From positions 1 through 23,869 of IMG/VR virus record IMGVR_UViG_3300037805_000110: a stretch of 23,869 nucleotides of DNA; one strand, written 5' to 3'. Below are positions 3,008 through 21,629 of the stretch, piece by piece. Source of the stretch: a virus. The first letter of the stretch is position 1, and every line of letters starts with the position of its first letter. The notes beneath the pieces were generated by a model. That model searched no databases. It saw only the letters and a program-made list of their open reading frames with translations, and had not been told where the DNA came from. A program made the translations under genes and the position numbers.

Positions 3008-3262
3008 TTATACTCCTTCACCCATTTGAATCTCCATCATGAGATCTTCCAACTTATCCATCGCTTCTGATAATAACTTATTTATAGCAGCAACGTCATT
3101 AGCAGCGCCCTTACCTACAGCATCAATCGCCTGTTTATCAAACACACCGCCCTTTCTGGTAGTTCTAACTGCTCTGTCTACCATATCTACAATCTGAGCA
3201 CCGTTTTTAGACGCGGATGCTTCATTTAGGTTGGCTTCCACAACATCATTAAATGTCTTCAT
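3008..3262 (-). CDS. Small internal head protein with capsid-targeting sequence
   Basis: 84 aa. The N-terminus MKTFNDVVEANLNE|ASAS matches the T4 capsid-targeting sequence (in T4 internal proteins MKTYQEFIAE|A), and LNE fits the gp21 prohead-protease site [L/I]xE. Removal of 14 residues would leave a 70-aa helical protein. A late promoter lies 26 nt upstream. It heads the operon 3262-1323. The size is like a small T4 internal protein; the role after injection is unknown. Confidence 0.7.
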   Translation of the reverse strand: MKTFNDVVEANLNEASASKNGAQIVDMVDRAVRTTRKGGVFDKQAIDAVGKGAANDVAAINKLLSEAMDKLEDLMMEIQMGEGV

Positions 3263-3287: not shown

Positions 3288-3296
3288 CTATTTATA
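3288..3296 (-). promoter_or_regulatory. T4-type late promoter
   Basis: TATAAATAG on the minus strand is an exact TATAAATA match. It overlaps the TAA stop of the ligase fusion gene and lies 26 nt before the ATG at 3262. Confidence 0.8.
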
Positions 3297-4806
3297 CAGC
3301 AGTATAGAACTCTCTAATCTCGACATACATCGAGTGGATCTCTTTTGGTGTGTTTGCCTTGAAGTATTTATCATCATCGATCTTCTCAATGACCTTGGAC
3401 GCACTAATATCGTCGTCCGTCCTAGGAGTCTCGTCAACACTCACATCTGGCATTCTCGCCAACTGTGTGTTATACGAGTCAACACGATCAGTGCCAGCCA
3501 TGATAACATTGATGTTGTTGTCGGACTTGTTCATTAGTGTAATGAGGTTGCCGCTTGTGGACTCAACAATCTCGATCTTGTTGCCGAATGCTGTTTCCAG
3601 CATCTTACGGCGAAGGGCTTTGGAGTCCTTAGTGTCTTTGCTGGTGATCAGCGCAACAGTCATAGAATCATATTTACGGATGCCCTCAGCGATGATATCA
3701 TAATGGGCGGTGGTCATAACACGATACTTACCAAGCATCAAAGCACCGTTATTACCGTCCAGGCGGCGGGTGGCAATCATCTTAACCGACAACACAAGGT
3801 CGTCAATGATGATGCTGGTATCCTTCTTACTGTGTGAGAATGACGGTGAGTATTTCTTAAAGTGTTTGGCAGCCTCTCTCATATATGAACCGAGATCAAC
3901 CCCGACAGGATTACTCATTAGATACTCTTCAGCAGCACCTCTAACACTTGCCCAATAGGAAGTCTCCGCCTCAACATCATCCTCCTTGAATCTCATCTTA
4001 ATCTTAGCACGTGCCACGTTATCTAACTGGTACTCTTGCTGGAACTTGATGATCTTACCATTGTACTTGATGACAACACCCTCTTCCTTGCCGCCGAACA
4101 CACTCTCAACAGCTAAAAAGATCTTGGAGACACCAGACACGATTGAAGCGTTATCTTCCCACTCAATAGAGTCTTTATACGCATTGAACTCACTCTGTAG
4201 CTCTTTGTGTAGAATACCCTTGTTAAATGTTGCCTCTGTACCCAAAACACCCTTGAACATTAGCAGAGGGGTGTTTAATGAAAGTGACTTAGCGTACTGA
4301 TCACGTTTGTCAATGAAGAATCCCTTTGGCTTGGTTTTCAACATAGCATTCTTAATGGTATACTTGGTGGGAGAATGAGCAATGAGGACCATACCATGTG
4401 GCTTCTTATAGTTGGATGATACAGTGGGCTTACGCATCAAGAACTCAACAAACAGCTCTGTACCAACAGGCACACTATTCTTCCCTATCTTAGCAAAATG
4501 ATCAAGAACCACCTTGAACTGGGAAGAGCCTATGCTTGTCTTCTTAATAGTCTCATCTGAAGCGTAATCGAACTCACCTGAGTAGATGATAGCATTTTTA
4601 TACGCGATCACCCAATCATCAATGGTGCCATTGTTAGCCATCTTAACCACTGTGATTTTCAGTCCATCAAGTTTTGCTTCGACCTCAACTGGTGAGGTCA
4701 AAAACTCTTTGATGGCCTTGTCGTTTGTCAACACCTTGGCAGCAGCTTTAATGCTAATGTCCAGCATAGCCTTGGCTTCTGTTATATATTGCTTAAATGT
4801 CTTCAT
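3292..4806 (-). CDS. Ligase-like / nucleotidylyltransferase fusion with capsid-targeting sequence
   Basis: 504 aa from the ATG at 4806; the longer open frame to 4893 was rejected because MKTF is the recurrent start. Residues 1-10 (MKTFKQYITE|A) are a capsid-targeting sequence with an ITE cleavage site. The N-terminal half has the covalent nucleotidyltransferase motifs of ATP-dependent DNA/RNA ligases: EAKLDGLKI (motif I, Lys of KxDG), ELFVEF (IIIa-like), EEGVVIKY (IV) and IIKFQ (V). The last ~150 residues look like an NMNAT-type adenylyltransferase: MTTAHYDIIAEG at the HxGH position, then VIMAGTDRV and DDISASKV (ISATKV motif). The HxGH motif is degenerate. The substrate is unknown; nucleic-acid repair, capping or NAD metabolism are possible. 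It is read from a late promoter lying inside the neighbouring endonuclease gene. Confidence 0.7.
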   Translation of the reverse strand: MKTFKQYITEAKAMLDISIKAAAKVLTNDKAIKEFLTSPVEVEAKLDGLKITVVKMANNGTIDDWVIAYKNAIIYSGEFDYASDETIKKTSIGSSQFKVVLDHFAKIGKNSVPVGTELFVEFLMRKPTVSSNYKKPHGMVLIAHSPTKYTIKNAMLKTKPKGFFIDKRDQYAKSLSLNTPLLMFKGVLGTEATFNKGILHKELQSEFNAYKDSIEWEDNASIVSGVSKIFLAVESVFGGKEEGVVIKYNGKIIKFQQEYQLDNVARAKIKMRFKEDDVEAETSYWASVRGAAEEYLMSNPVGVDLGSYMREAAKHFKKYSPSFSHSKKDTSIIIDDLVLSVKMIATRRLDGNNGALMLGKYRVMTTAHYDIIAEGIRKYDSMTVALITSKDTKDSKALRRKMLETAFGNKIEIVESTSGNLITLMNKSDNNINVIMAGTDRVDSYNTQLARMPDVSVDETPRTDDDISASKVIEKIDDDKYFKANTPKEIHSMYVEIREFYTAV

Positions 4807-4898: not shown

Positions 4899-5427
4899 AT
4901 GACTACATCTATTTATCAAGGTGGCAACTTCTATGTCTACCTCATCACCGACCTAAATCCCTCAGTCCTGCAATCAGACTACTCACACTGAGAAACGATG
5001 TGGATGAGAATGGTCTTGATGGTATCCAAAGATTATGTCACACTAGATCCATGAACATGAGAAGTGATATAGATGAGAATGGTCTTGATGGTTATCAGAG
5101 GCAAGGTGTAACATTGTCAACCATTAAATCCGATCCTGTATGGAAAGAAACTGTTGGTAAATTAGCATTTGTGCAAGCAGTCAAAACACGAGGGCACGTT
5201 CAGCCCTTATAGGCCACACTCAATATGGAACATTTTCAACCGCTCCAGAGCTGGTAAATGCCATGAATAACACTGTAAGTGTCAACACCATCAATAAACA
5301 CGCTAGAACAAAATTCAACACTGTTATAAACAGATCGTCTATATCACACTCAAAGTATCTCCAGAGTTTACCATATAATCCTATAGGCATGACATGGGCG
5401 GAAACTGGATTCTTTGTGATCGACTAA
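4899..5427 (+). pseudogene. GIY-YIG homing endonuclease relic
   Basis: Three frames are used. The first 30 codons (MTTSIYQGGNFYVYLITDLN, stop at 4991) equal the start of the GIY-YIG gene at 13795, but the YIG half is missing. A middle part repeats DENGLDG twice (about 5002 and 5073) and then gives SDPVWKETVGK, one unit of the 21-aa repeat of the 13795 gene. The last part, in another frame, encodes the shared C-terminal domain (YGTFSTAPELVNAMNN ... GMTWAETGFFVID) and stops at 5427. The nuclease core is deleted, so it is dead. It lies antisense between two tagged phage genes; its stop overlaps the stop of the convergent gene at 5424. Confidence 0.85.
4909..4917 (-). promoter_or_regulatory. Late promoter for the ligase fusion, inside the endonuclease relic
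   Basis: GATAAATAG on the minus strand lies within codons 4-7 (SIYQ) of the relic, 103 nt before the ATG at 4806. It starts a 40-bp block identical to 13808-13847. Confidence 0.65.
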
Positions 5428-6635
5428 CGATCTCGTTTTCTACCATAGTTAGCATAATACTCGTCTGTCATATCCTTGATCTGCTTCTCATATTTCTTCA
5501 GCCAGGGAAAAACATCAATTAGATGATTAACACCGCCGAACTTGATCTCCGCGTCGATGTTCTTATCATCACGTTCAAGAGGTTGTCCAGCAGGACCCCA
5601 ACACACTTCAAGGTATCTCTCAAATGTAGTGGCAATGCCTTTCTTATCAAGATATTTCTTCATCAGTTCAACAACACCGACAAATGACCACATCTTTTGA
5701 AGATCCTTAGAATTACGCTCATTAAATAATATCTGGAACATAGACTCAATCGCAGTCTCATATGATGATCCCTTACTAGGCAACTCTCTATAGACATGCT
5801 TACCATCATGAACCCAATGATCATTTGTGCCAGGAACCATAACAGGCTCATATGCTGTGCGAAGACCACGGACCACACTGAACTTGTTGACATTGATTGT
5901 TGTCAGAGGCTCACCCTTCGTTTTCTTGAACTTCGGCTTCTCATAAGTACCAGACTTCAGAAGAATCAACACATCATCACGCTTAGAAGCGCCGCCAACA
6001 ATCGAGCGCAACAAATATTTGTGGTTAACACCCTTGAACCCCTGTTGAGCATCAGCCAAAGAGGATGAATGACTGAAACGAGCAAACATGTCAGGCTCAC
6101 CATTCTCAAACGCGGTGAACTCGAAATCCACCTGAGATTGTGTCTCATTCTCACCAAAAGTCACTTGGAACACTGAGTTGATCTGCTCACCAATAGAACT
6201 CACTGACAGTTTATTACACCCACGATACTCAACATCCTTCATGAAGTGCGGATTGCTCTCAAGATCATCTAAGAGGTGCCATAGATCTGCTTTATACTCA
6301 TGTGGTACCATAATATCAATGTCGCCAGCAGTAGGCTTATATGGGATGACAGCATCATCGGCCAACTCAGGATTCATAATAAATGAAGTTGAACCATTAA
6401 ACGCGACACCGTTCTTGAGAATTTTCTTGTTCTCCCACAACGGATAACCGTACTTCTTCTCAAATAGACGGTCAATCTCTTCAAACACCTCAATGAACTT
6501 CTTAATGAACTGGGCACGCCCGATATCCTTCAGAGGAATCTTCTGGGCAAGTGTATCCATACCAGTTTGCTTGTTCGTTGCTCTTGCATTGCCGCCCTCT
6601 TGGAGTTGCTTTCTATGTTGGTTAAATGTTTTCAT
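5424..6635 (-). CDS. Nucleotidyltransferase-fold protein with capsid-targeting sequence
   Basis: 403 aa. MKTFNQHRKQLQE|GG is a variant capsid-targeting start in which LQE at 11-13 fits the prohead-protease rule. Residues around 70-105 have FNGSTSFIMN, then AGDIDIMV, and later VDFEFTAF. This GS...DxD...D layout is the active-site pattern of polymerase-beta-type nucleotidyltransferases (two metal-binding Asp plus a third acidic residue). The target could be RNA, protein or a small molecule. The start follows the stop of the tagged gene at 6637 after one base, so the two are co-translated. The C-terminal half is not recognised. Confidence 0.65.
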   Translation of the reverse strand: MKTFNQHRKQLQEGGNARATNKQTGMDTLAQKIPLKDIGRAQFIKKFIEVFEEIDRLFEKKYGYPLWENKKILKNGVAFNGSTSFIMNPELADDAVIPYKPTAGDIDIMVPHEYKADLWHLLDDLESNPHFMKDVEYRGCNKLSVSSIGEQINSVFQVTFGENETQSQVDFEFTAFENGEPDMFARFSHSSSLADAQQGFKGVNHKYLLRSIVGGASKRDDVLILLKSGTYEKPKFKKTKGEPLTTINVNKFSVVRGLRTAYEPVMVPGTNDHWVHDGKHVYRELPSKGSSYETAIESMFQILFNERNSKDLQKMWSFVGVVELMKKYLDKKGIATTFERYLEVCWGPAGQPLERDDKNIDAEIKFGGVNHLIDVFPWLKKYEKQIKDMTDEYYANYGRKRDR

Positions 6636-6636
6636 A

Positions 6637-7914
6637 TTATTTGATCTTAACGTAAAGTGAATTGGTGTCGGTAACTTTCATCGCAGAGAAGAATGAGTAT
6701 CGCATAACTTCATCATATCGCTTCATAATGAAATCCAAGTGAGATGCTAGAATAACATATCGACGCTTTAATGTATCGTCAAAGTCATCAAAATTATTCG
6801 GCCAAAGAAGGGCATTGTCCTTCTTCATAATGTCCTTACTATACATCTTGAATGTACCCTTAGCATTCTGAAGATCGCTTTCACTAAATTTGAACTTGTT
6901 GCCATTCAGGATCTGGCCCTTTGTATATCTCTTCCATGCTTTAGCATCAATGGCACCCATAGCAAAGTTCTCTTGCTTGAATGTTCCTTCAAGATATAGT
7001 GTGGTGCTATTCTCTTTGGCACGTGAGTTGCCCTTCCAAGTGAAACCGCTCTTAGTCTCGATAAATAACGACTTGAGTGATCCTGAGATGATGATCTTGT
7101 TCAATGAGAAGTCATAGTCTAGCTTCTTATTCTTATATTTAGATGGGTTCACTAACTCCATAGATGACTTCTTGGACGCCTGCTTCAATGAAATGGGACA
7201 AAGACCACCAGTCAGATATTGCACACGAATCCAATGAACCAACTCTTCCATATGAGTCATCTTGCCAACATCTTGAGCAACTGTGTTGGCAATCCTCATA
7301 TTGAACAACCATAAATCAGCAGGATTCCAGTTGTCAGCAGAAGACGGTCCGCCCAGTCTCTTGGCCGCAGCATAAATGTGTTTAGAGATGCTATCTCCCT
7401 GAAACTCGAAGATGTACTGATTGCCTCTCAATGGCTTAATCTTCTTATACGATTCAAGTTGAAGTTGAGCACTATCAAAAAACTTGTCAATATATAGTGT
7501 TGGATCAGCATCATATTTAGGCAACTCAGCCTCAATGGCACCCTCAGATATCAAGGAGTTCGTCTCTTGATAGTGTTTAAACACGATAAGTGAAACAGCC
7601 TCTTTAACTCGTGTGGCCTTGTGAGTGTCTGACTTACCTCCTCCCATCTTAGCAAATGATGCGTTAATGGCACTAGGCGAACCATTCAGTTTATAAGTCA
7701 CGCCAGCAATAGACAAAATTACAGAAGATGGACCAGATCCCAATTCTACCATATTATCAGTTGGAGCGCCAATCTCAATATCACCGGCAGGAATAAGTGC
7801 TGCCAGTGTCTTATTAGGACTCTTCGCCAAGCGTAGTTTTGTGCCTGGAGCGTATTCACCCTGAGATCTATTTACCAGTGTCATCTCGTTCAAGTACTCA
7901 TTAAAACTCTTCAT
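6637..7914 (-). CDS. Tagged protein, possible PD-(D/E)XK-type nuclease
   Basis: 425 aa. The start MKSFNEYLNE|MT is a capsid-targeting sequence with an LNE site. In the middle, NWNPADLWLF is followed about 50 residues later by GGLCPISLKQ. A D followed by a hydrophobic strand ending in (S)LK is what the catalytic core of PD-(D/E)XK nucleases looks like, and an N-P-x-D-x-W pattern with ISLK is, as far as I remember, found in phage and restriction nucleases. This is inference from short motifs. The start overlaps the end of the methyltransferase gene by 14 nt. If it is a nuclease, the neighbouring methyltransferase could protect phage DNA. Confidence 0.6.
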   Translation of the reverse strand: MKSFNEYLNEMTLVNRSQGEYAPGTKLRLAKSPNKTLAALIPAGDIEIGAPTDNMVELGSGPSSVILSIAGVTYKLNGSPSAINASFAKMGGGKSDTHKATRVKEAVSLIVFKHYQETNSLISEGAIEAELPKYDADPTLYIDKFFDSAQLQLESYKKIKPLRGNQYIFEFQGDSISKHIYAAAKRLGGPSSADNWNPADLWLFNMRIANTVAQDVGKMTHMEELVHWIRVQYLTGGLCPISLKQASKKSSMELVNPSKYKNKKLDYDFSLNKIIISGSLKSLFIETKSGFTWKGNSRAKENSTTLYLEGTFKQENFAMGAIDAKAWKRYTKGQILNGNKFKFSESDLQNAKGTFKMYSKDIMKKDNALLWPNNFDDFDDTLKRRYVILASHLDFIMKRYDEVMRYSFFSAMKVTDTNSLYVKIK

Positions 7915-8689
7915 TGTATACCTTTAATAGTTCACCCTGTGTGAAAGTTGGTGCCATTGCTGTTTCAAGCGCACACTCATATAACTGTTGCTGTATGCTG
8001 TCTAAATTACACTTCAGAGTGTATTTATCAATATTACTTTTCAAGAAAATGAACTGTGTTATAGGCTTGGCATTAACCGGATCAACGATCTCCCCTGTAT
8101 TCTTCCATCCTGTACGTCTCACAGCCCAATCAGCGTCATCCTTATTGAAGCATTTGCCTTGCTTGACAATAGAGAAGTCCGCCACATCTTTAGGAAGCAC
8201 CATCTTTTCTCTTGGGAACATCTTTCTCTCCCACACCTGAAATACACATCTGGCAGAAGTACCCGACTCAAACACACCCTCGTCCAACACTATATTGGTG
8301 CTCATATGAAACATAGAATTCAATTGATTGATGATATACGCTTTATTGAATGACCTAGGCACGATGAATGCTATCGTCTCAGCATAAACGGCGGCCTCGT
8401 TGAAAAAGTCAATAGCGCCCTGTGCTCTATATCCAAATGGTGGATTGCCGATGACAAGGATATTATCATTCACCGGCACATATGATCGACTCTTCAGATA
8501 GTCAACTTCAATCGTGTATGGTGTCTTTGGATCAATATCAAACGCAACTCGTTTGTTAGAGGGAATGAGATCAGAAAAAGCACCAGCGCCCGCAGACGGC
8601 TCAATAATAGTATCGTATTGAGAATCATCAATCAGATCATATAACTCTTTGGATAAGTCGCGTTCCGTGAAGTGTTGGTCTAATTTCAT
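7901..8689 (-). CDS. DNA N6-adenine-type methyltransferase
   Basis: 262 aa from the second of two adjacent ATGs (8692 and 8689). EPSAGAGAFSD (residues 34-44) is the SAM-binding motif I, FDIDP is motif II, and GNPPFGY is catalytic motif IV (NPPF type, amino-methyltransferases). The region AIDFFNEAA...IAFIVPRSF fits motifs V-VI. The nearest type is the small gamma-class or Eco57I-like N6A methyltransferase of phages; RNA as substrate is not excluded. It has no capsid-targeting start. A sigma70-like promoter stands immediately before the gene, so it can be made early, unlike its tagged neighbours. Confidence 0.8.
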   Translation of the reverse strand: MKLDQHFTERDLSKELYDLIDDSQYDTIIEPSAGAGAFSDLIPSNKRVAFDIDPKTPYTIEVDYLKSRSYVPVNDNILVIGNPPFGYRAQGAIDFFNEAAVYAETIAFIVPRSFNKAYIINQLNSMFHMSTNIVLDEGVFESGTSARCVFQVWERKMFPREKMVLPKDVADFSIVKQGKCFNKDDADWAVRRTGWKNTGEIVDPVNAKPITQFIFLKSNIDKYTLKCNLDSIQQQLYECALETAMAPTFTQGELLKVYNEEF

Positions 8690-8695
8690 CATAAC

Positions 8696-8724
8696 ATTAT
8701 ATCACATTGATTGAAAAGTGTTAA
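8696..8724 (-). promoter_or_regulatory. Sigma70-like promoter for the methyltransferase gene
   Basis: On the minus strand: TTAACA (8719-8724), 17 nt, TATAAT (8696-8701), with TG one base before the -10. The -10 ends 6 nt before the ATG at 8689, so the start of transcription would coincide with the start codon. Confidence 0.75.
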
Positions 8725-8727
8725 TTC

Positions 8728-8807
8728 TTTACCTTTATGTTGTAATCTGCTTTAACTGCTCTATATGTCTCACGGGCGCGTTCATTGCCCTTGATGACCT
8801 TCCACTC
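8728..8807 (-). repeat. 80-bp direct repeat, copy 1 (displaced 3' end of the kinase gene)
   Basis: Identical to 9145-9224. It encodes the last ~27 residues of the kinase gene (EWKVIKGNERARETYRAVKA and on) but now lies after the gene at 8806, without a gene of its own. Confidence 0.9.
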
Positions 8808-9138
8808 ACTTATAATATATTTCCACAGAATCATCTTTACCCATACTAGAATCGGCCATCCAAGTAGCATAGAACTCAGATGGTTTATTTTCCTTCACCC
8901 ATTTTCTCACGCCTGTTAGTGTATTAACACGTTTAGTGTTCACATATCCTTTTTTAGCGGAGTCCTTGAACTCACCAATCACCTTTCTATTGTCAACCTG
9001 GCCACCAAACCCCCTCTTAGGAAAATCGTTACCGCCAACATTGTTGTTGAGTTGAATAGCAAAATTCATCTTATCAACTGTACCAAAGAATGGTTTAGGA
9101 CCTCTAGCTTCTGTTATAAACTCTACATATGTCTTCAT
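8806..9138 (-). CDS. Tagged small protein inserted behind the kinase gene
   Basis: 110 aa. The start MKTYVEFITE|ARG is very close to the T4 internal-protein start MKTYQEFIAE|A, and ITE is a good prohead-protease site. The mature part is basic and Gly/Asn-rich (NNNVGGNDFPKRGFGG) without a recognised fold. Its ATG shares one base with the TAA of the kinase gene (TAATG). It is flanked by two copies of an 80-bp piece of the kinase 3' end, so the gene looks like a recent insertion into the operon. Function unknown; a small injected inhibitor, like T4 IPI*, is a possibility. Confidence 0.65.
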   Translation of the reverse strand: MKTYVEFITEARGPKPFFGTVDKMNFAIQLNNNVGGNDFPKRGFGGQVDNRKVIGEFKDSAKKGYVNTKRVNTLTGVRKWVKENKPSEFYATWMADSSMGKDDSVEIYYK

Positions 9139-9671
9139 TAGTTATTTACCTTTATGTTGTAATCTGCTTTAACTGCTCTATATGTCTCACGGGCGCGTTC
9201 ATTGCCCTTGATGACCTTCCACTCCGGGATACTGCTCTGCTTACCGATCTTGGCACGTTTATTCATGCGTTTGATAGCGGTGTCAGCGTTCACATCAATC
9301 AACACAACAGCAACGGAGTATCCCATTGAATGTGCTTTATCCACCTTGTTCTGAATGGTTTTAACACTACCACCAACAGTCACTTGGCCGAATGATACAC
9401 CCTGCTTGAGATACCCATCAATCTCCTTGTTGGCAACACCAATAGCTTTATTGAGGATCTTCGTGCGCTTCTCGAAGTCACCTCCGCTCAATTTAAACGT
9501 GATCTCATCCATGTCCACAAGTGGCATATTGGGGAAATGTGAGTTGAACACGGTATTTTTACCTGAAGCGGGACCACCACATACTATAATGAACACAGGG
9601 CCTATATCTGTGCTATCCAGATCAGCCAGTGTGATCTTAGACTCGTTTAAAAACTCTTCAAACGTCTTCAT
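9138..9671 (-). CDS. P-loop kinase (zeta-toxin / polynucleotide-kinase-like) with capsid-targeting sequence
   Basis: 177 aa. MKTFEEFLNE|SK is a capsid-targeting start with an LNE site. Residues 26-39 give VFIIVCGGPASGKNTV, a strand plus Walker A (GxxxxGKN[T]), followed by LVDMDE, which resembles the DxD of zeta-toxin and polynucleotide-kinase families. Near residue 118 AVVLIDVNADTAIKRMNKR looks like the lid-arginine region of such kinases. The substrate is unknown (nucleotide, RNA 5' end or a cell-wall precursor are family options). The ATG overlaps the stop of the upstream gene by ATGA. Confidence 0.75.
   Translation of the reverse strand: MKTFEEFLNESKITLADLDSTDIGPVFIIVCGGPASGKNTVFNSHFPNMPLVDMDEITFKLSGGDFEKRTKILNKAIGVANKEIDGYLKQGVSFGQVTVGGSVKTIQNKVDKAHSMGYSVAVVLIDVNADTAIKRMNKRAKIGKQSSIPEWKVIKGNERARETYRAVKADYNIKVNN
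9145..9224 (-). repeat. 80-bp direct repeat, copy 2 (3' end of the kinase gene)
   Basis: Identical to 8728-8807. In this copy the sequence is the in-frame C-terminus of the kinase gene. Confidence 0.9.
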
Positions 9672-11044
9672 ACATCAAACATCGCGTTCAACTTCTCTTG
9701 CGTCTTCTTAGGCACTTTATACGCCTTGAACCATACATTCATATCATCACCAAATAGAACCGACGCTGAATCGAAATGCTTTGTTATGAAGGCGAAATCC
9801 TTATCATTCAACTTGTCTGCGTACTTCATTAGATACTCTGGCATCAATAATTTAGTGCTCTCAGTGTCACCTATCTGGAATCCGAACTTCATAATGTGCT
9901 TATTTCTAATGAGTCTCTTAAAGTCTTTAATTGTGACCTGATCGCCGTTCGCAAGTGTTGGGGAAATAAGAATCATCTCATCACCAATAGTCTTGATGGT
10001 ATCACGTATAGTGATTCTCTCAAGATTATTCATCATCTCCTTTGATGTGTAAATGACCATCTTAGGATTCACATTCATCACCTTCTCAACCACCGTGAAC
10101 GCGCTCTTGTCAACGAAGATTGCTTGTGTTGGCTCTGATGGATGAATGATGCCCTTTCCGCTCTTATCCGCAAATCCACTGTATCCAAGCGCGCGGAACA
10201 CACTGTTCCACTTGATGACATCCCTGTTGGCCATCTTTTTCTGAGTGTCCTCAAAAGTTCCAGGTCCTGCTAACATAGAGGAAAGCTCCCCAGTCACATA
10301 CCAGAATGATCCAGCAGGACCCTTTACAGCAGCGTTTTTGATGGATGTTCGGACAATACCCTGAATACTATCATCGAACTCACGATTATAATTGTTGATG
10401 ATCGCCTTTATCACACCAGATGAATTGAACCGTGAATATGGTGTACGCTCAAGAGGTTCCCAGTGGTCTAAACCACCAAAGTAACCATTCATCCCATCAA
10501 CGAAATCTTCCCATTCTATAGACTCATCATTCAGTATTTTACGGATCTGCTGTGACCAATCGGATAGCATCTGAATATCACTATCATTTTGGCCAGTTTG
10601 ATTGATTATGATTTTGGCGATTTTGAGAGAGTACTTGACAATAACTGTATCCACCACGCCGATGTCTTTACCATACAATTGATCCAACTTCGCCATATCA
10701 CGGTCAAAGTCAGCACTTGTATACTCAGTGTACAGATCCTTGACGAACTTCTCTTTAGTCTGACGAATCACCCAGATATATGGCGCCTTACCAGCAAATG
10801 GCACTTCGACATGACGCTGTTTGTGATTGAACTCCTTAAAGATCTCTTTCAGCGGATAGGAATATATGGAAATTGGGGTGTTATATGGCGAGTGTGGATT
10901 GATGCCTATCTTATCAACACCAGTAAATGAGATGTATATGTCCTCATCGTCCTTATACTTCTCAAGAGCATCATAAGCAGATATCTTAGGATTCTGTTCG
11001 GGGTTACGTCTAGCTTCAAATAGGAATTCGTTAAATGTCTTCAT
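9668..11044 (-). CDS. Large tagged protein, function unknown
   Basis: 458 aa from the ATG at 11044; the open frame reaches 11134 but MKTFNEFLFE|ARR is the capsid-targeting start used throughout this region (LFE site). Residues 36-60 read YISFTGVDKIGINPHSPYNT, followed by a PISIYSYPL stretch, a signature I associate with uncharacterised internal proteins of large phages. The C-terminal half has GKGIIHPSEPTQAIFV, another motif of that group. An enzyme such as an ADP-ribosyltransferase is conceivable but no catalytic triad can be assigned. It is the first gene of a tagged operon (11044-8806) and is served by the late promoter at 11139. Confidence 0.65.
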   Translation of the reverse strand: MKTFNEFLFEARRNPEQNPKISAYDALEKYKDDEDIYISFTGVDKIGINPHSPYNTPISIYSYPLKEIFKEFNHKQRHVEVPFAGKAPYIWVIRQTKEKFVKDLYTEYTSADFDRDMAKLDQLYGKDIGVVDTVIVKYSLKIAKIIINQTGQNDSDIQMLSDWSQQIRKILNDESIEWEDFVDGMNGYFGGLDHWEPLERTPYSRFNSSGVIKAIINNYNREFDDSIQGIVRTSIKNAAVKGPAGSFWYVTGELSSMLAGPGTFEDTQKKMANRDVIKWNSVFRALGYSGFADKSGKGIIHPSEPTQAIFVDKSAFTVVEKVMNVNPKMVIYTSKEMMNNLERITIRDTIKTIGDEMILISPTLANGDQVTIKDFKRLIRNKHIMKFGFQIGDTESTKLLMPEYLMKYADKLNDKDFAFITKHFDSASVLFGDDMNVWFKAYKVPKKTQEKLNAMFDV

Positions 11045-12463: not shown

Positions 12464-13682
12464 CTATATATTTATCACCGCACACTTTCATTATTTCGTC
12501 AGGCGTCTTCCCCAGCATAATAAGGTTCTGTACATAAGCAGGACTGATACCGTCTTGTATGTTATATCCTTCTGTCATAACATTATCGGGATAGAACTTC
12601 TCTATCATATCACTAAACATCTCTGTTGTCAAGTGGCCCAGCTCTAATTTTAGATCGACTCTACCTGGACGCAAGAGAGCATCATCAAGTGTCTCATGGA
12701 AGTTGGTCGTCATCACAATAATTCTGCCGTGATTGACAATACCACCGTCAAGAGCTGTGAGAATCTTACCCATTCCGAAGGTCTTCTTATCTTTTTCACC
12801 TGAATCATCTTCGTCTCTTTTTGATAGTCCCATTGTGTCTATCTCATCAGCCATAATGATACAGTCAGATGGGGCGGATTCGGCGGCTTTTGTAAGGTCG
12901 GCAACATCATCCACCATCAAAATATCTCTGGACAAGTATCCTGCCAGCGCCTTTGTCAACACACCTTTACCCGTTCCAGGAGGGCCGTATAACAGTATAC
13001 CCAACTGATATGGTATATTATGCTGTAAATACCACTGCTCATTCGCAATGAACTTATCCACCGTCTCCAACACATCACGTCTATTGTCTTCTGATAGAAT
13101 GACTTGTGATAGATCAAAGCGGGGCTGCTCGGTGACTAGAATTCTATCATCCCAGTCCCATCTATAGTATCGAAGCTTACTCGCATCTCGATTATGCTGG
13201 ATGTCATCTAACAGCTCATCAAACATCTTATGGGAGCGACCCAGCTTTCTAATGGTGATGAACTCCTTCACAATCTTAGACTGACCACCTTCTTCCTTTT
13301 CGATGTGTATGGAGACAGGTCGGCCTCTGACAATGAACAACTGGCGCCCGTATCCGATCTCCTTAGTCGTGTTCTTATTCTCACCGTGGCGACCATTAGA
13401 CAAACGTAGAGTGCGTGAGTTGTCTGACAACCCCTGCCTCATTAGGTATCTCATCAGTAAGTGGAACGACTCTTGAGTGTTGTTCACCTCTAACTTAGTG
13501 GTTAAGTGCTTGATTAGAAAGTGATATACGGTGAACGGTATGTCCTTAGCAATATACATACCCACGCCAGACAGGCCGCCCCACACCACGCCTATCGCAA
13601 AATCATTTCCGTTGAGGACAGTTTCAAGATAAGTGTTAGCTGCTTGTATCAATGTCGATATGATATTTAGATCTATATTCAT
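12456..13682 (-). CDS. BCS1-like AAA+ ATPase
   Basis: 408 aa. An N-terminal membrane-like segment (residues 27-44, FAIGVVWGGLSGVGMYIA) is followed by a BCS1-type region and then a single AAA+ module. This has Walker A GPPGTGKG (about 234), Walker B CIIMADEID, sensor 1 MTTN and the second region of homology LDDALLRPGRVD with its arginines. Mitochondrial BCS1 moves a folded protein across a membrane; the role of phage and bacterial relatives is not settled. A sigma70-like promoter ends 6 nt before the ATG, so early synthesis without a leader is predicted. The ORF ends inside the start of the next small gene. Confidence 0.85.
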   Translation of the reverse strand: MNIDLNIISTLIQAANTYLETVLNGNDFAIGVVWGGLSGVGMYIAKDIPFTVYHFLIKHLTTKLEVNNTQESFHLLMRYLMRQGLSDNSRTLRLSNGRHGENKNTTKEIGYGRQLFIVRGRPVSIHIEKEEGGQSKIVKEFITIRKLGRSHKMFDELLDDIQHNRDASKLRYYRWDWDDRILVTEQPRFDLSQVILSEDNRRDVLETVDKFIANEQWYLQHNIPYQLGILLYGPPGTGKGVLTKALAGYLSRDILMVDDVADLTKAAESAPSDCIIMADEIDTMGLSKRDEDDSGEKDKKTFGMGKILTALDGGIVNHGRIIVMTTNFHETLDDALLRPGRVDLKLELGHLTTEMFSDMIEKFYPDNVMTEGYNIQDGISPAYVQNLIMLGKTPDEIMKVCGDKYIDE

Positions 13683-13688
13683 CAGATC

Positions 13689-13717
13689 ATTATATCACAA
13701 AATCACGTTATTGTGAA
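13689..13717 (-). promoter_or_regulatory. Sigma70-like promoter for the AAA ATPase gene
   Basis: On the minus strand: TTCACA (13712-13717), 17 nt, TATAAT (13689-13694), with TG one base before the -10. Six nt separate TATAAT from the ATG at 13682. Confidence 0.75.
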
Positions 13718-13807: not shown

Positions 13808-13816
13808 CTATTTATC
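13808..13816 (-). promoter_or_regulatory. Late promoter on the opposite strand inside the endonuclease gene
   Basis: GATAAATAG on the minus strand lies in codons 5-8 (PIYQ) of the GIY-YIG gene, 126 nt before the ATG of the AAA ATPase gene, which would thereby have an early and a late promoter. Confidence 0.6.
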
Positions 13817-14184
13817 AAGGTGGCAACTTCTATGTCTACCTCATCACAGATCTAAACCATCACTCTGAAGCACGCTACTATATAGGCTCTGCCACTCGTA
13901 AAGAGCTGGTTGAGAAGAACATCGACCCTGAGCTGGATACATATTACGGCTCATCAAGCGTTGTATCCTTATTTGAGCGTCAAAAGACACAATCACATGA
14001 GCTGGAACGAGTCATCATTGAGACATTTGATGATAAGAAGGAATGTTTATTAGTAGAAGAATGGTATCAGAGACAACACCAAGCTGTTGGGAATCCATTA
14101 TTCTACAATAAGGTCTATGCTAACAATAAGTATACTCCCACAGCAGACTCGATAAGAAAGATGTTGGAGACGCGAAACACGCTA

Positions 14185-14785: not shown

Positions 14786-16153
14786 CTAGTTCACCTTAAT
14801 TCCGCCAAACTTCTTTTCGCCCTTCGTCTTACCAAATTGAGGCTTCTTAGTAATGTCCGCCTTGACTGGAGCACTCAACTGAACATCCTCTGACACGTTT
14901 GATAATGTCATTCGAGGATAATCAACATTCACCATAAATGACCTCTTATAGTCACTGTACCTATTCTTAATTATAGATATTTTTAACTGACCCATCGCCT
15001 GAAGTTCCTCTGTTGCTACAAGCGCCAACATCATATCGGCAACTGCTGGCAAGCCGAAACTCTCCGCTGTTGCTGTCATGTCAGGATCACTATCATTGAA
15101 GGCACCACGATTCACCTGAGCTGCTGTCCATACAGGCACATCATGCTCAATGGCCAATGCTCTAATCTCCTCAGCAATGGACTTGATGTAGTGATACGAG
15201 TTCTCAGAAGACCCACTGAATCTTGATGAAGCACAAATACCTAGATAATCGATCATGATCACATCTGGCTTGAACTTCTTTTTGATCTGAAGCTCTTTCA
15301 ACAGTGCCTTGAATGTAGCAGCACTGGCACCAGATGTAGGATACTCCTTAATGACCAGTTTACCCTTGATGGTATCAGTCACCCTCTTGAACTTGCCGAG
15401 GTACTCATCCTTCTCCATAGACTCCAGACTATTCACTGGTGTTCTCAGCATATTAGCATCAATACGCTCGGCGATCTTCTCTTCTGCCATCTCCATGGTG
15501 ATATACAACACGTTCTTATGTTGCTTGAGGTAAGAGGCGCCTAAATGACAGAGTGCTAGTGACTTACCAGTGTTCACGCCTGCTAATATGACATTCAGTG
15601 TCTTCTTATGAACACCACCCTTCATGGCCTCATTTAGCTTAGTGAGATCGCACGGCATCACCTCTTCAGCGCGGTGGTAGTACTCATATCGTGACTCAAC
15701 ATCATCACTATAATCATGGCCGATGTGATTGTCAAGAGAGACCGCCAGCGCATCAGATAGTATTCCTGGTAGTGCGGTATTGGGCTTGTCCTCATCATCG
15801 ATGACATTGATGCCCTCCATGATAGCGTTATACACTGCCTTATCACGGATGAACTTATCAGTAGCGTCAATCAACCACTCTTCATCATGGGACTCTTTGG
15901 TGAGCCCTTCAACAACCTCCATTGTGGATGCATATTGCTGCTCATTCAAGGTGTCCAGATCATCGATTGCTATACCCAGAGCATCTATACTTGGCGGCTT
16001 ATTATACTTGATGGTGTGCTTCAACACCGCTTCCACCACTATACGCTCGGGGGTGTCGTGGAAATACTCAGGCTTCAAATGAGCAACAACTCGCTCCATA
16101 TAGGAGGAGTTGTTCAGAAGCTCAGAGATTATAACATTCTCGATATTATTCAT
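14786..16153 (-). CDS. 41: Replicative DNA helicase (gene 41, DnaB-like)
   Basis: 455 aa from the ATG at 16153. An N-terminal helical domain is followed by the RecA-like motor: Walker A GVNTGKSLAL (about residue 193), VLYITMEMAEEKIAERID (motif H1a), DVIMIDYLGI (Walker B) and VPVWTAAQVNR (H3, sensor Gln). KNRYSDYKR near the end fits the arginine-finger region. This is the hexameric helicase that opens the fork for gp43 and works with the primase. The gene follows uvsX and two small genes, as in T4 (uvsX-40-41). A sigma70-like promoter ends 6 nt before the ATG. Confidence 0.93.
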   Translation of the reverse strand: MNNIENVIISELLNNSSYMERVVAHLKPEYFHDTPERIVVEAVLKHTIKYNKPPSIDALGIAIDDLDTLNEQQYASTMEVVEGLTKESHDEEWLIDATDKFIRDKAVYNAIMEGINVIDDEDKPNTALPGILSDALAVSLDNHIGHDYSDDVESRYEYYHRAEEVMPCDLTKLNEAMKGGVHKKTLNVILAGVNTGKSLALCHLGASYLKQHKNVLYITMEMAEEKIAERIDANMLRTPVNSLESMEKDEYLGKFKRVTDTIKGKLVIKEYPTSGASAATFKALLKELQIKKKFKPDVIMIDYLGICASSRFSGSSENSYHYIKSIAEEIRALAIEHDVPVWTAAQVNRGAFNDSDPDMTATAESFGLPAVADMMLALVATEELQAMGQLKISIIKNRYSDYKRSFMVNVDYPRMTLSNVSEDVQLSAPVKADITKKPQFGKTKGEKKFGGIKVN

Positions 16154-16159
16154 CAATAT

Positions 16160-16188
16160 ATTATATCATCCATCTTGTGTCATGTTAA
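16160..16188 (-). promoter_or_regulatory. Sigma70-like promoter for gene 41
   Basis: On the minus strand: TTAACA (16183-16188), 17 nt, TATAAT (16160-16165), with TG one base before the -10. It overlaps the end of the upstream small gene; 6 nt separate TATAAT from the ATG at 16153. Confidence 0.75.
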
Positions 16189-18170: not shown

Positions 18171-18415
18171 TTCTTCTCCTTCCTTATAAACCTCTTGTGT
18201 ATATACATAGCACTCACCACACCCATTGAGCCTCCTAGACCGATATATGGTATTGATGACCAACCGATCTGAACAACATATAGTAAAGTGGCAACGTCTG
18301 CTACCGCTAGACCCCACGTGGTCAACACTGACCAGTAATAGTATCCATGAACCACGTTCTGTTGCTGAAGGCCCCGAGCAAGTATCAAGATGAATGAAGT
18401 GAATATAAGTATCAT
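18167..18415 (-). CDS. Small membrane protein next to gene 43, Imm-like by position
   Basis: 82 aa from the ATG at 18415, which is preferred over the one at 18436 because a TATAAT box ends 6 nt before it. Three hydrophobic stretches (residues 2-13, 29-48 and 54-70) suggest two or three membrane spans, and the C-terminus is basic (KRFIRKEKK). In T4, imm (83 aa, superinfection immunity, blocks entry of DNA from later phages) lies just downstream of gene 43. Position, length and membrane nature agree; sequence similarity cannot be judged by eye. Confidence 0.55.
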   Translation of the reverse strand: MILIFTSFILILARGLQQQNVVHGYYYWSVLTTWGLAVADVATLLYVVQIGWSSIPYIGLGGSMGVVSAMYIHKRFIRKEKK

Positions 18416-18421
18416 TGATGT

Positions 18422-18427
18422 ATTATA
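18422..18427 (-). promoter_or_regulatory. Extended -10 box for the membrane-protein gene
   Basis: TATAAT with TG one base before it, 6 nt before the ATG at 18415. The -35 region (GATACA at 17 nt) is weak. Confidence 0.5.
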
Positions 18428-18448: not shown

Positions 18449-19372
18449 TCACCCAAAGAACGATTCCAGCGAGACTCTTTTCTCATGAGACCAATCAATA
18501 GCATTCAGCATAAGTTTCAACGGCTTAACGAACGCCTTCTCAAATTGAAGATCCCTATCAATCCACTTGGGATCAAATGCTTCTGGGATGCCATCATGGA
18601 AGCCCATCACATGCGAATGATATGGGTTAGGCTCTTTCAAATATGTGAACACCAGCTTACCACCATCATCAATGGGTGTGATAGTGTCGTTTTCACCCAA
18701 CATCTCATTGTGCGTGATGGCAGCCTTTGAGTTAATGGGAACACCCTTAGATACAGGCACACCATTCTCATAATACTTGGACACACTACTCACACCTCGT
18801 GGCATCCCAATATCCTCAATCGATAGTGTGTCAAACTCCCTCTTCACATCATCAATATAACTAATGAGGTCATCATTTGTCTTGTCCATCATATATCCCA
18901 CACACTCTTTCAGCTTGTCACGAAGGATAGCAGGTGTGGAAGACTTCACGATGTCAAGTCCCATAATCTTCATCTTAGGCTCAGGATACCGCACGCCCTC
19001 AGAGTCATAGACACGTATAGCATATCTCTTCTTGGAGACGAATATGCCGGGTGTACCAATGATTTCTCTGTCTGCTGCTAGGGTTCTCTCGGTTACGTTG
19101 AGATAGTCCATTAGGACCCCGTACATTCGTTCCAGCTCAGGTTCCATCTTCTCAGCAGAGAACTTGGCAAGCATATCGACCACTTTATCAGTGTCGGCAT
19201 TTGGCATGAACTTCTCAACAAGAGGAGACACGTCCATGTAAACGGAATTGTGAACTAATATGTCATTAGCAAAGAAGTTATGGTTATTCTTCACCTCAAT
19301 ATCATATACCCACTCCTCTTTAACACCCAACGACTCAATCTCATAATCACTTATTAGATTCAAAGTATCCAT
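18449..19372 (-). CDS. 43: DNA polymerase C-terminal part with C-half of a split intein
   Basis: 307 aa from its own ATG at 19372. Residues 1-42 are the C-intein: WVYDIEV (block F start) and HNFFANDILVHN (blocks F and G), followed by Ser as the +1 residue. From there SVYMDVSPLVEKF continues the polymerase palm right after YGDTD. FVSKKRYAIRVYD is the KKRY motif, KIMGLDIVKSSTPAI follows, and the protein ends SLESFFG, equal to the clamp-binding end of T4 gp43 (SLDFLFG in RB69). A TAA directly precedes the ATG, so it cannot be read through from the upstream piece. Ligation to the N-part by protein trans-splicing is inferred. Confidence 0.9.
   Translation of the reverse strand: MDTLNLISDYEIESLGVKEEWVYDIEVKNNHNFFANDILVHNSVYMDVSPLVEKFMPNADTDKVVDMLAKFSAEKMEPELERMYGVLMDYLNVTERTLAADREIIGTPGIFVSKKRYAIRVYDSEGVRYPEPKMKIMGLDIVKSSTPAILRDKLKECVGYMMDKTNDDLISYIDDVKREFDTLSIEDIGMPRGVSSVSKYYENGVPVSKGVPINSKAAITHNEMLGENDTITPIDDGGKLVFTYLKEPNPYHSHVMGFHDGIPEAFDPKWIDRDLQFEKAFVKPLKLMLNAIDWSHEKRVSLESFFG
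19247..19372 (-). other. C-intein (IntC) of the split polymerase intein
   Basis: 42 codons. The terminal His-Asn plus Ser+1 are the residues needed for Asn cyclisation and transfer. HNFFANDILVHNS is also, as I recall it, how the known split intein NrdJ-1 ends. Confidence 0.9.
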
Positions 19373-19389
19373 TTATTTTTCTCACAATA

Positions 19390-20278
19390 TTATCCATTTA
19401 TCATCACAATTTCATCACCCTTCCTCAAATCATGGACAGTGCCAGAAATTAACCTCTCTCCTCTACATATCATTATTGAATGATCGCCTGTAATCACCAC
19501 TTCCTTACCACCCGATTTAATCTTGAACATCTCTTTCTTAACTTTATGTGCCATAACATAACTAACATCATTATACTCAATACAGAAGTTATCATTAACA
19601 CTTGCGGCCTTCAGTCCATGCGGTAAGTGTTTGATGAGATTGTCCTTTCCTCGAATCTCAACTTCACCATCGCTATCATTAAATAAATCCTCAATTTTAA
19701 TCCCACCGTAATTTGTAGTTATTACACTATCTCCAACAACACTGTCGGTGTCCCCATAAACACAGTACTTACCGTCAATGGGATGAATCCTCTGGAAGAA
19801 CTCCTCAAGCCCCTTATCCATCCACTTAACTGTAAGTTGACCAGTGTGAGTGATAGCGTTTGCCTGCTCAACATCAAAGTATCGAAAATGTACATTGGCA
19901 ACTGCGCCATATAAACTATTTAACCATTATGTTCGAGAAAACACGCTACCATCTTCTCCGTTCTCTTATGAACTGCTATATGTCACCATATAGATCAGAC
20001 TATATCATCACCCTAATCAATAGGGGCTGGGCGCTTCCACTCACTTGAGTGTACTCCCTCGCGGGATAGTCGTTGCACCTTCCTCAATGAGGCTTGGCTC
20101 AGGATTGTCTACTTGAGAGTTCCCCTGAATTCACCCAGTTATTCGACAGGGGTCACCCCCTGAAGTCACATTATTTTATGATCTTACGAGTCATTTGGGC
20201 ATTCCCAAACAACACTTCTCTGCTACTAGCGTCTTTATAAGCAGCAATCAACTCATCATCACTCATTTCTTCATACAT
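19390..20278 (-). CDS. 43: DNA polymerase palm part, with group I intron, ending in N-half of a split intein
   Basis: Exon 20278-20178 begins with AAGGA then ATG and codes MYEEMSDDELIAAYKDASS to MTRKI. After removal of the intron 19925-20177 the frame continues as KIMLNSLYGAVANVHFRYFD (the polymerase B motif), then ANAITHTGQLTVKW, and reaches the catalytic YGDTD (motif C) at 19758-19744. From Ser at 19743 the sequence is intein: SVVGDSVITTN (block A), VVITGDHSIMI (block B), LRKGDEIVM, stop TAA at 19390. The unspliced message stops 4 nt inside the intron. Both RNA splicing and protein splicing are needed to join the two catalytic Asp motifs. The upstream fingers region is out of frame with this piece. 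Confidence 0.8.
19393..19743 (-). other. N-intein (IntN) of the split polymerase intein
   Basis: 117 codons, starting with Ser1. Block A resembles NrdJ-1 (VGSSEIITRNYG as I recall it, here VGDSVITTNYG). Block B has the conserved Asp-His (GDHS). There is no endonuclease domain. The G+C content in sampled lines is about 30-35%, below the polymerase around it. Confidence 0.88.
19925..20177 (-). ncRNA. Group I intron in the DNA polymerase gene
   Basis: 253 nt without an ORF. P1: exon AAGATCAT pairs with intron GTGACTT (20163-20169) with one bulge, giving the required U.G pair at the 5' site. P2: CAGGGG/CCCCTG. Core: AATCCTGAGCCAAG (Q, 20093-20106), GTGCAACGACTA (R, 20067-20078) and GATATAGTCTGA (S, 19995-20006), with P7 pairing ACTAT/ATAGT. 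P9: CTATAT/ATATAG. Two more hairpins precede the 3' end, GTTC/GAAC and GAGAA/TTCTC. The last base is G (19925). Splicing yields KIMLNSLYGA, matching KILINSLYGA of T4 gp43. The core fits subgroup IA, like the T4 td intron. Confidence 0.93.
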
Positions 20279-20399
20279 ATATTATCCTTATCATATATTT
20301 CATATCCATCAAAATCATTATAGTCAAATTCCGTCAGTTTGTAAACATCAACACCAAGATCCTCTAGTGAGTAGCCGACATGATCACAGAGAGAACCGC
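20279..20399 (-). other. Out-of-frame fingers segment between two polymerase pieces
   Basis: In the frame one base back from the upstream cistron, this stretch codes SGSLCDHVGYSLEDLGVDVY, followed by KLTEFDYNDFDGYEIYDKDN, then stops at about 20266. The frame is lost at a run of four G (20413-20416, minus strand) and again at about 20277. Its downstream half (20281-20340) is only about 22% GC. It may be lost polymerase sequence or the remnant of an inserted element. Confidence 0.5.
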
Positions 20400-21629
20400 T
20401 TATATAGATATACCCCTCTTCATCATCTCCTCTTTGATGGCCTCTTTCTCGGCTTCAGCCTCAAGCATCTTACCTTTATACATCTTACGCTCTTTGAACA
20501 GTCCCTCCACAAGGAACGGGATCATACCCTGCTTCTCTCTAGAGTGCCTAACACCATTAGCCGCTAACGTATACTCAATGGCATCCGTATCAATCTTCTG
20601 AGTGAGAAGATCTTCAATGGTCACATCATCCCTCTTACCCAACTTGGTCTCAGGACTCAGATTGAGTGCTCGCATGATGGATGGATATAGTGATGTCAGA
20701 TCAGCAGACAATAGCCACTTGATCATACCCACACGAGGATTGCCCACATATCCACCAACTACAGTGGTATCGCCAGATGAGTGGCCGTTCTTAGGCACAA
20801 TCACACCGTGCTCCAAGCAATAGTTATAGATCCAAGCATCTGCTGGCACAATGGTACCAAACACTTTATCAAATGGGATCTTGGTCATATAACTGAATGC
20901 GATGCCAATGTCCATAAGACCCATCTTATCGTCAAGGCTCTTGACCAACTGTGTATCTTTCAGGGAGTAGTCGAGAAACTTGTGGTAGTCGTCCTCGTAC
21001 AAGGACATGAGGTCACCATGCTCTTCATATGAAATCTTCTTCTCACCCAGCTCAACATGAGCGATATGATCCAACTTATATGACTCTTGGGCCTTGAATG
21101 TGAACTTTTTATATAGCTCTATGTAGTCAAAGGATGCTATACCCACAAAGTCAATGGATGTCGCCTCTTTACCAAAGCCGTTAGTGAATGTGCGAGTGTT
21201 GACAATTCCCCATGGAGACAGGGATTTAGCATACGGGCCGCCAAGTACCTGTGTGATTCTGTTGTAGATGTATAGGTTATCGAACACATCAATGTTCCAG
21301 CCAGTGATAATGTCGGGATCAATCTCTTTCCACAGTGCCACAAACGACTCTAACAGGGATGCTTCATCATCAAATGCGAGGTATTCACACTCATCACTCT
21401 GCCAAGTGTCATCTCCTAGGCCGAGAACCCAATACTTATCATGCGTTGATGAATGGATAGACACCGCCGTGATTTCGTGGGCAGCATCTTCAGGATATGG
21501 AAATCCACCGCTCCTCACATAACAAGACTCACTGAAGTTTACCCACCTTCCCAATTTTTCATCGTAAACTTCATAATCATCCCTATTGTTTAATCCTTTA
21601 AACTCTCTAATCGTATAATCTCTTTCCAT
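20400..21629 (-). CDS. 43: DNA polymerase exonuclease and palm/fingers part
   Basis: 409 aa. After about 40 residues without a counterpart in T4 gp43 (start MERDYTIREFKGLNN), the sequence joins the family at SGGFPYPEDAAHEITAVSIH. DIITGWNIDVFDNLYIYNR is the Exo II motif, and LDYSLKDTQLVKSL is Exo III. SADLTSLYPSIMRALNLSPET is the palm motif A with the first catalytic Asp. FKERKMYKGKMLEAEAEKEA is the start of the fingers. The frame ends at 20400 after KRGISI. It lacks Exo I, which is in the upstream cistron. The ATG at 21629 overlaps the end of the endonuclease ORF by 40 nt. Confidence 0.85.
   Translation of the reverse strand: MERDYTIREFKGLNNRDDYEVYDEKLGRWVNFSESCYVRSGGFPYPEDAAHEITAVSIHSSTHDKYWVLGLGDDTWQSDECEYLAFDDEASLLESFVALWKEIDPDIITGWNIDVFDNLYIYNRITQVLGGPYAKSLSPWGIVNTRTFTNGFGKEATSIDFVGIASFDYIELYKKFTFKAQESYKLDHIAHVELGEKKISYEEHGDLMSLYEDDYHKFLDYSLKDTQLVKSLDDKMGLMDIGIAFSYMTKIPFDKVFGTIVPADAWIYNYCLEHGVIVPKNGHSSGDTTVVGGYVGNPRVGMIKWLLSADLTSLYPSIMRALNLSPETKLGKRDDVTIEDLLTQKIDTDAIEYTLAANGVRHSREKQGMIPFLVEGLFKERKMYKGKMLEAEAEKEAIKEEMMKRGISI

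Follow-up and report, generated by a model that had tools for sequence, protein, structure and literature searches.

In T4, the short ip genes encode injected anti-restriction proteins that share a capsid targeting sequence, whereas their bodies are mutually unrelated and their loci variable (PMC12373910, PMC3012670). The injected proteins Ip1-3 have only the N-terminal leader in common, inhibit different GmrSD enzymes and sit in a variable hotspot (PMC12373910), so turnover of injected proteins is to be expected. In the same phage, recombination at microhomologies of 2–10 bp drives amplification and deletion, including of counter-defence genes (PMC9391042), and T4-related phages have been proposed to acquire genes through illegitimate exchange and 3'-end invasion (PMC2993671). 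The gain of injected anti-host proteins in T4-like phages has mostly been deduced from finished genomes, whose joins are eroded. Here we describe a locus at which the two joins can apparently be placed at single-base resolution.

The window, that is, the whole stretch of DNA analysed, is an entire virus record of 23,869 bases (G000) from a T4-related phage; its UvsX has 48–53% identity to the best cultured-phage matches. From their translations, we take other open reading frames (ORFs) to be pieces of a B-family polymerase, a DnaB-like helicase and free-standing homing-endonuclease-like ORFs. The DNA polymerase (18449-21629) is split among separate ORFs, between which lies an intein-like stretch, and a 49-bp repeat of 96% identity (4909-4957 and 13808-13856) links a degraded stretch to an intact homing-endonuclease-like ORF. 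A short tag, MK(T/S)(F/Y)...(L/I)xE, stands at the start of seven genes, all on the minus strand. Two of them, a kinase-like gene (K) and a small gene (T), are followed in order by a copy of the kinase end (R2), a methyltransferase promoter and the methyltransferase gene (Table 1).

Table 1. Coordinates of the tagged genes, the methyltransferase and its promoter, and the two repeat copies within the window.
Feature	Position	Strand	Description
T	8806..9138	(-)	110-aa tagged gene, begins MKTYVEFITEAR...; start codon overlaps K stop (TAATG)
K	9138..9671	(-)	Tagged P-loop kinase-like gene, 177 aa, MKTFEEFLNES...; Walker A GGPASGKN; PHROG 4581/2071
R1	9138..9224	(-)	87-bp copy, 3' end of K including TAA stop; exact core 9145-9224
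R2	8721..8807	(-)	Non-coding remnant of kinase end; exact core 8728-8807
Methyltransferase promoter	8696..8724	(-)	TTAACA-17-TATAAT, TG extension; 11/12 consensus positions
Methyltransferase	7901..8692	(-)	Untagged DNA methyltransferase; probable start 8689; EPSAGAGA and NPPF motifs
tagF	9668..11044	(-)	Tagged; directly upstream of K; conserved left border of variable slot; 46% homologue in L043
tagD	6637..7914	(-)	Tagged; after methyltransferase; tag scan, PHROG 1462
tagC	5424..6635	(-)	Tagged; PHROG 19290; L042 and Vibrio phage Va1 homologues without tag
tagB	3292..4806	(-)	Tagged; CP220 and Va1 homologues (40-43%) without tag
tagA	3008..3262	(-)	Small tagged gene; tag scan

The exact cores of R1 and R2 are identical at 80 of 80 positions and lie 417 bp apart. 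A preliminary description of this DNA had reported that identity and had assigned the R1 core to the 3' end of the kinase gene; both points are borne out, R1 consisting of the last 28 codons and the stop of the kinase ORF. The full homology is somewhat longer than the core, with 85 of 87 bases matching, and both mismatches fall within the last 7 nt (5 of 7 matching there). The TAA of the kinase frame closes the homology in R1 and R2 alike, which makes 87 bp the natural unit. A chance origin is ruled out, given that in none of 50 first-order Markov simulations of the window did an exact direct repeat exceed 17 nt, against the 80 nt observed. R2 occupies the space between the T and methyltransferase ORFs and begins within the TGA stop codon of T: the last two bases of that codon (8806-8807) are part of the repeat, GA being contributed by R2 and the first base by the T side.

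T is a coding gene and carries the tag. In its own frame it has a codon score of 0.305, within the range of the window's other genes (0.127-0.315), and all five alternative frames score below zero, which rules out a spurious ORF. Its product starts with MKTYVEFITEA, compared with MKTYQEFIAEA in T4 ipII/ipIII, and thus has an N-terminal tag of the MKTYxEF(I/L)xEA type. Codon score and tag together uphold the earlier account of a tagged gene, and the duplicated kinase end does frame it. Residues 1-19 also give a weak match to PHROG 2667 'internal head protein' (E=0.013). The consensus of the prohead-protease site, (L/I)xE, stands at the tag end; as a sequence match, it reads ITE in T and LNE, LFE, LNE, LQE, ITE and LNE in the six other tagged genes. 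We predict that the tag directs the T product into the phage head, that the prohead protease cuts it after ITE and that the remainder is injected; an anti-restriction function would likewise be a prediction. The body of T had no match beyond chance in Pfam, NCBIfam, PADLOC or PDB sequences, and no Pfam, NCBIfam or PADLOC match identified it as a homing endonuclease (GIY-YIG, HNH or other nuclease). T is all that the 417-bp unit carries; no integrase or recombinase was matched in it, so it lacks the make-up of an integrative element. Neither GC content (38% versus 42%) nor codon usage marks T as foreign. Structure prediction from the single sequence gave a mean pLDDT of 48.5 for T and 36.6 for K. 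Read-through from T into the kinase frame of R2 was rejected from the sequence, as there is a +1 offset between the two frames and AAG-TGA is no known slip site.

K matches the Pfam profiles AAA_33 (E=1.1e-6) and Zeta_toxin (E=1.9e-5), both passing the curated cut-offs. The P-loop at 9568-9600 reads GGPASGKN where GK(S/T) is normal, and K may be an inactive or unusual kinase. Apart from one partial match of 31.8%, no homologue of K was found in viral contigs, phage records, genome contigs or related contigs; for T, there was none in viral contigs, phage records or related contigs.

The methyltransferase is matched by PHROG 5172 (E=5.9e-42), by a PADLOC Type II MTase profile (2.7e-29) and, in tblastn searches, by phage sequences at 33%. 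Its -10 box sits 6 nt before the ATG at 8689, an arrangement of the leaderless type. TATAAT stands exactly 6 nt before an ATG in four minus-strand genes (8689-8724, 13682-13717, 16153-16188 and 18415-18427), that is, the methyltransferase and three others in the window, against 0.4 expected from mononucleotide shuffles; the 6-nt spacing is also raised in the related contig G019 (loci L043 and L045), not in T4. These four genes possibly yield leaderless transcripts, with the predicted transcript start on the start codon. The promoter scan as a whole returned 45 sites, compared with 44.4 by chance, and our argument is built on the position and quality of the single methyltransferase site, not on the scan total. 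A search of 8690-8810 for a terminator-like stem found none.

This promoter bears on which copy is the older. The -35 box overlaps the stop codon of R2: the last four bases of R2, TTAA, followed by CA, make up TTAACA. R1 lacks these -35 bases and instead carries the TAATG at which T starts. Both differences between the copies therefore fall at bases that have to spell TTAACA in R2, to serve the promoter, and TAATG in R1, to start T. Because its last bases form the -35 box of the methyltransferase promoter, R2 is probably the ancestral end of the locus and the kinase end plus T the newcomer, although two differences in 7 nt are a small basis. The preliminary description had taken the opposite view, in which the copy behind T was the displaced one; the stop codon within the -35 box argues against it.

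The surroundings of T differ in a relative. In L043, tagF is followed, with the same ATG overlap, by a tagged gene resembling NMN-adenylyltransferase (NCBIfam 5.6e-9, below cut-off); next come a p2799 homologue (76%), another three MKTF genes and homologues of p2234 (40%) and p1513 (56%). K, T and the methyltransferase were found neither in L043 nor in L045, the remaining 18 kb of G019, a contig that may be a fragment. The same borders thus enclose other tagged genes, with unrelated bodies behind a common tag. G019 is the one informative relative; because its flanking genes are kept and its slot is filled by other tagged genes, the slot is best described as a turnover island of T4-like capsid-targeted genes. 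T lies in the middle of this island, followed by the methyltransferase and two more tagged genes, rather than at the tail of the operon as had been proposed before. In another locus, L042, homologues of tagC, tagD and tagB recur among other small genes. No relatives of tagD were found in viral contigs, and none of tagF in phages and genome contigs. The untagged homologues of tagB in Campylobacter phage CP220 and of both tagB and tagC in Va1 suggest that the tag was added to or lost from whole proteins, and in its behaviour the tag appears to be a separable N-terminal module.

We consider it reasonably probable that R1, T and R2 are a scar, left when a gene was recently inserted into the turnover island by a single illegitimate join with a donor that carried K and T in succession. 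Before the event, the lineage would have read K, promoter, methyltransferase, with the stop of K overlapping the -35 box. The donor molecule would have read K-T, the end of K and T being coupled by TAATG. The end of T in the donor would then have been joined to the recipient inside the last 28 codons of K, in one illegitimate event, either a microhomology crossover or 3'-end invasion with template switching in recombination-dependent replication. K would have emerged intact and T would have been gained under the upstream transcription of K and by translational coupling, while the recipient's own K end would have been left as R2 ahead of an undamaged methyltransferase promoter. The earlier proposal that T arrived with a copy of the kinase end by recombination remains the best reading in this form; simple unequal exchange between sister genomes does not, because it cannot supply an absent gene, and hence a donor carrying K-T is needed. 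Neither a donor genome (K-T-other) nor a pre-insertion genome (K-promoter-methyltransferase) was found in the collections searched. As K and T have no relatives there, the history and its direction are read from one contig.

The insertion is likely young, as the preliminary description had concluded from the perfect identity of the copies, but that identity is less decisive than it had supposed: zero differences in 80 bp allow a divergence of up to 3.7% (95% upper bound), and gene conversion between the copies would look alike. The sister contig L002 is 99.84% identical to the window over 6.7 kb, and with 9 mismatches strain variation is low. A survey of 85 loci from T4-like phages (1.33 Mb, overlaps included) for spaced direct repeats at least 40 bp long and at least 90% identical recovered few: promoter repeats and near-gene-start repeats in the related contig G011, an intragenic repeat in L076 and a CP220 pair just upstream of two genes. 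The window holds the only 3'-end scar in this survey; its one 5' mirror image is in L066 of G011, where a 105-bp repeat of 96% identity (5396-5500 and 5652-5756), comprising a promoter and the first 12 codons, frames a 61-aa ORF.

Other histories could leave a similar arrangement. The entire kinase gene might have been duplicated in tandem, and the 5' part of the second copy then replaced by the body of a tagged gene, through one exchange in common tag DNA and one illegitimate join before GAGTGG. The tag DNA ATGAAGAC.T, common to most of the seven tagged genes, could serve as the crossover point, the tag regions of T and K being ~72% alike by eye. However, this route requires two events and predicts the end of tagF before the second copy, not a TAATG on the stop of K itself, and we regard it as unlikely. 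It is a little harder still to credit that the genome holds an array (T-R)n with n>1, an amplification of T folded by the assembler into one unit. A unit of 417 bp exceeds a typical short read and would collapse in this way, and T4 does amplify counter-defence genes via microhomology (PMC9391042); nevertheless, the contig carries one unit only, and an initial R-T-R would still be required. We give similarly slight weight to a functional repeat, in which R1 and R2 are kept identical since the two can recombine to delete T cleanly (417 bp), making it a loss-prone or switchable cassette. Excision by R1xR2 would leave K (ending VKN*) and the methyltransferase promoter whole again, with no scar, and 80 bp of homology is far above the 2–10 bp reported as sufficient in T4 (PMC9391042), but there is no sign of selection for identity, and any such duplication is reversible. 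An assembly chimera of K-T-other and K-promoter-methyltransferase strains joined via the common 80 bp is very improbable even though the window is one metagenomic contig and L002, the one sister contig, breaks off within tagF, short of the repeat, because a k-mer jump through the kinase end yields K-promoter or K-T, the T-R2 join must exist in the reads and 80 bp is less than a typical read.

Taken as a recent insertion, the locus suggests how a tolerated insertion may look: placed at a gene end, with the upstream frame kept, translation coupled to the neighbour and the next promoter spared. A wider reading, in which T is a seamless removable cassette, the population is mixed for the injected protein and islands cycle by adding with a scar and losing without one, seems doubtful to us. 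R1-T-R2 offers a concrete target for measuring how a natural population gains and loses one such gene.

Among repeats around genes in T4-type phages, that of L066 likewise frames one small ORF directly, although it copies a gene start rather than a 3' end and its ORF is untagged. PeSL mobile regulatory cassettes have an early promoter and a stem-loop terminator as the repeat unit and surround shuffling genes in plastic regions; the window similarly has repeated sequence and a promoter at the right border. Unlike in PeSL, the repeat here is the coding 3' end of a kinase gene, and the promoter merely abuts R2. T4 alt.-1/alt.-2 are also partial gene duplications beside the gene of a virion-packaged protein, alt (NC_000866 annotation), but they correspond to the 5' part, are old and diverged, and have no gene inserted between the copies. 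The amplification of T4 dmd-tifA is likewise a short-repeat, recombination-driven change of accessory counter-defence genes, and the window encodes UvsX of T4-type recombination. In dmd-tifA a resident gene is amplified in tandem, however, whereas the window adds a new gene and duplicates 87 bp of its neighbour; T is present once in the contig, where an array of two or more whole copies could be collapsed. T4 ipI, ipII and ipIII are, like T, short genes with an N-terminal tag; they differ in that the body of T resembles nothing found, that packaging of T is predicted from its sequence and that the tag in the window also occurs on large proteins whose relatives are without it. The proposed mechanism is an ordinary one that fits known illegitimate recombination in T4, here apparently caught at an informative stage.
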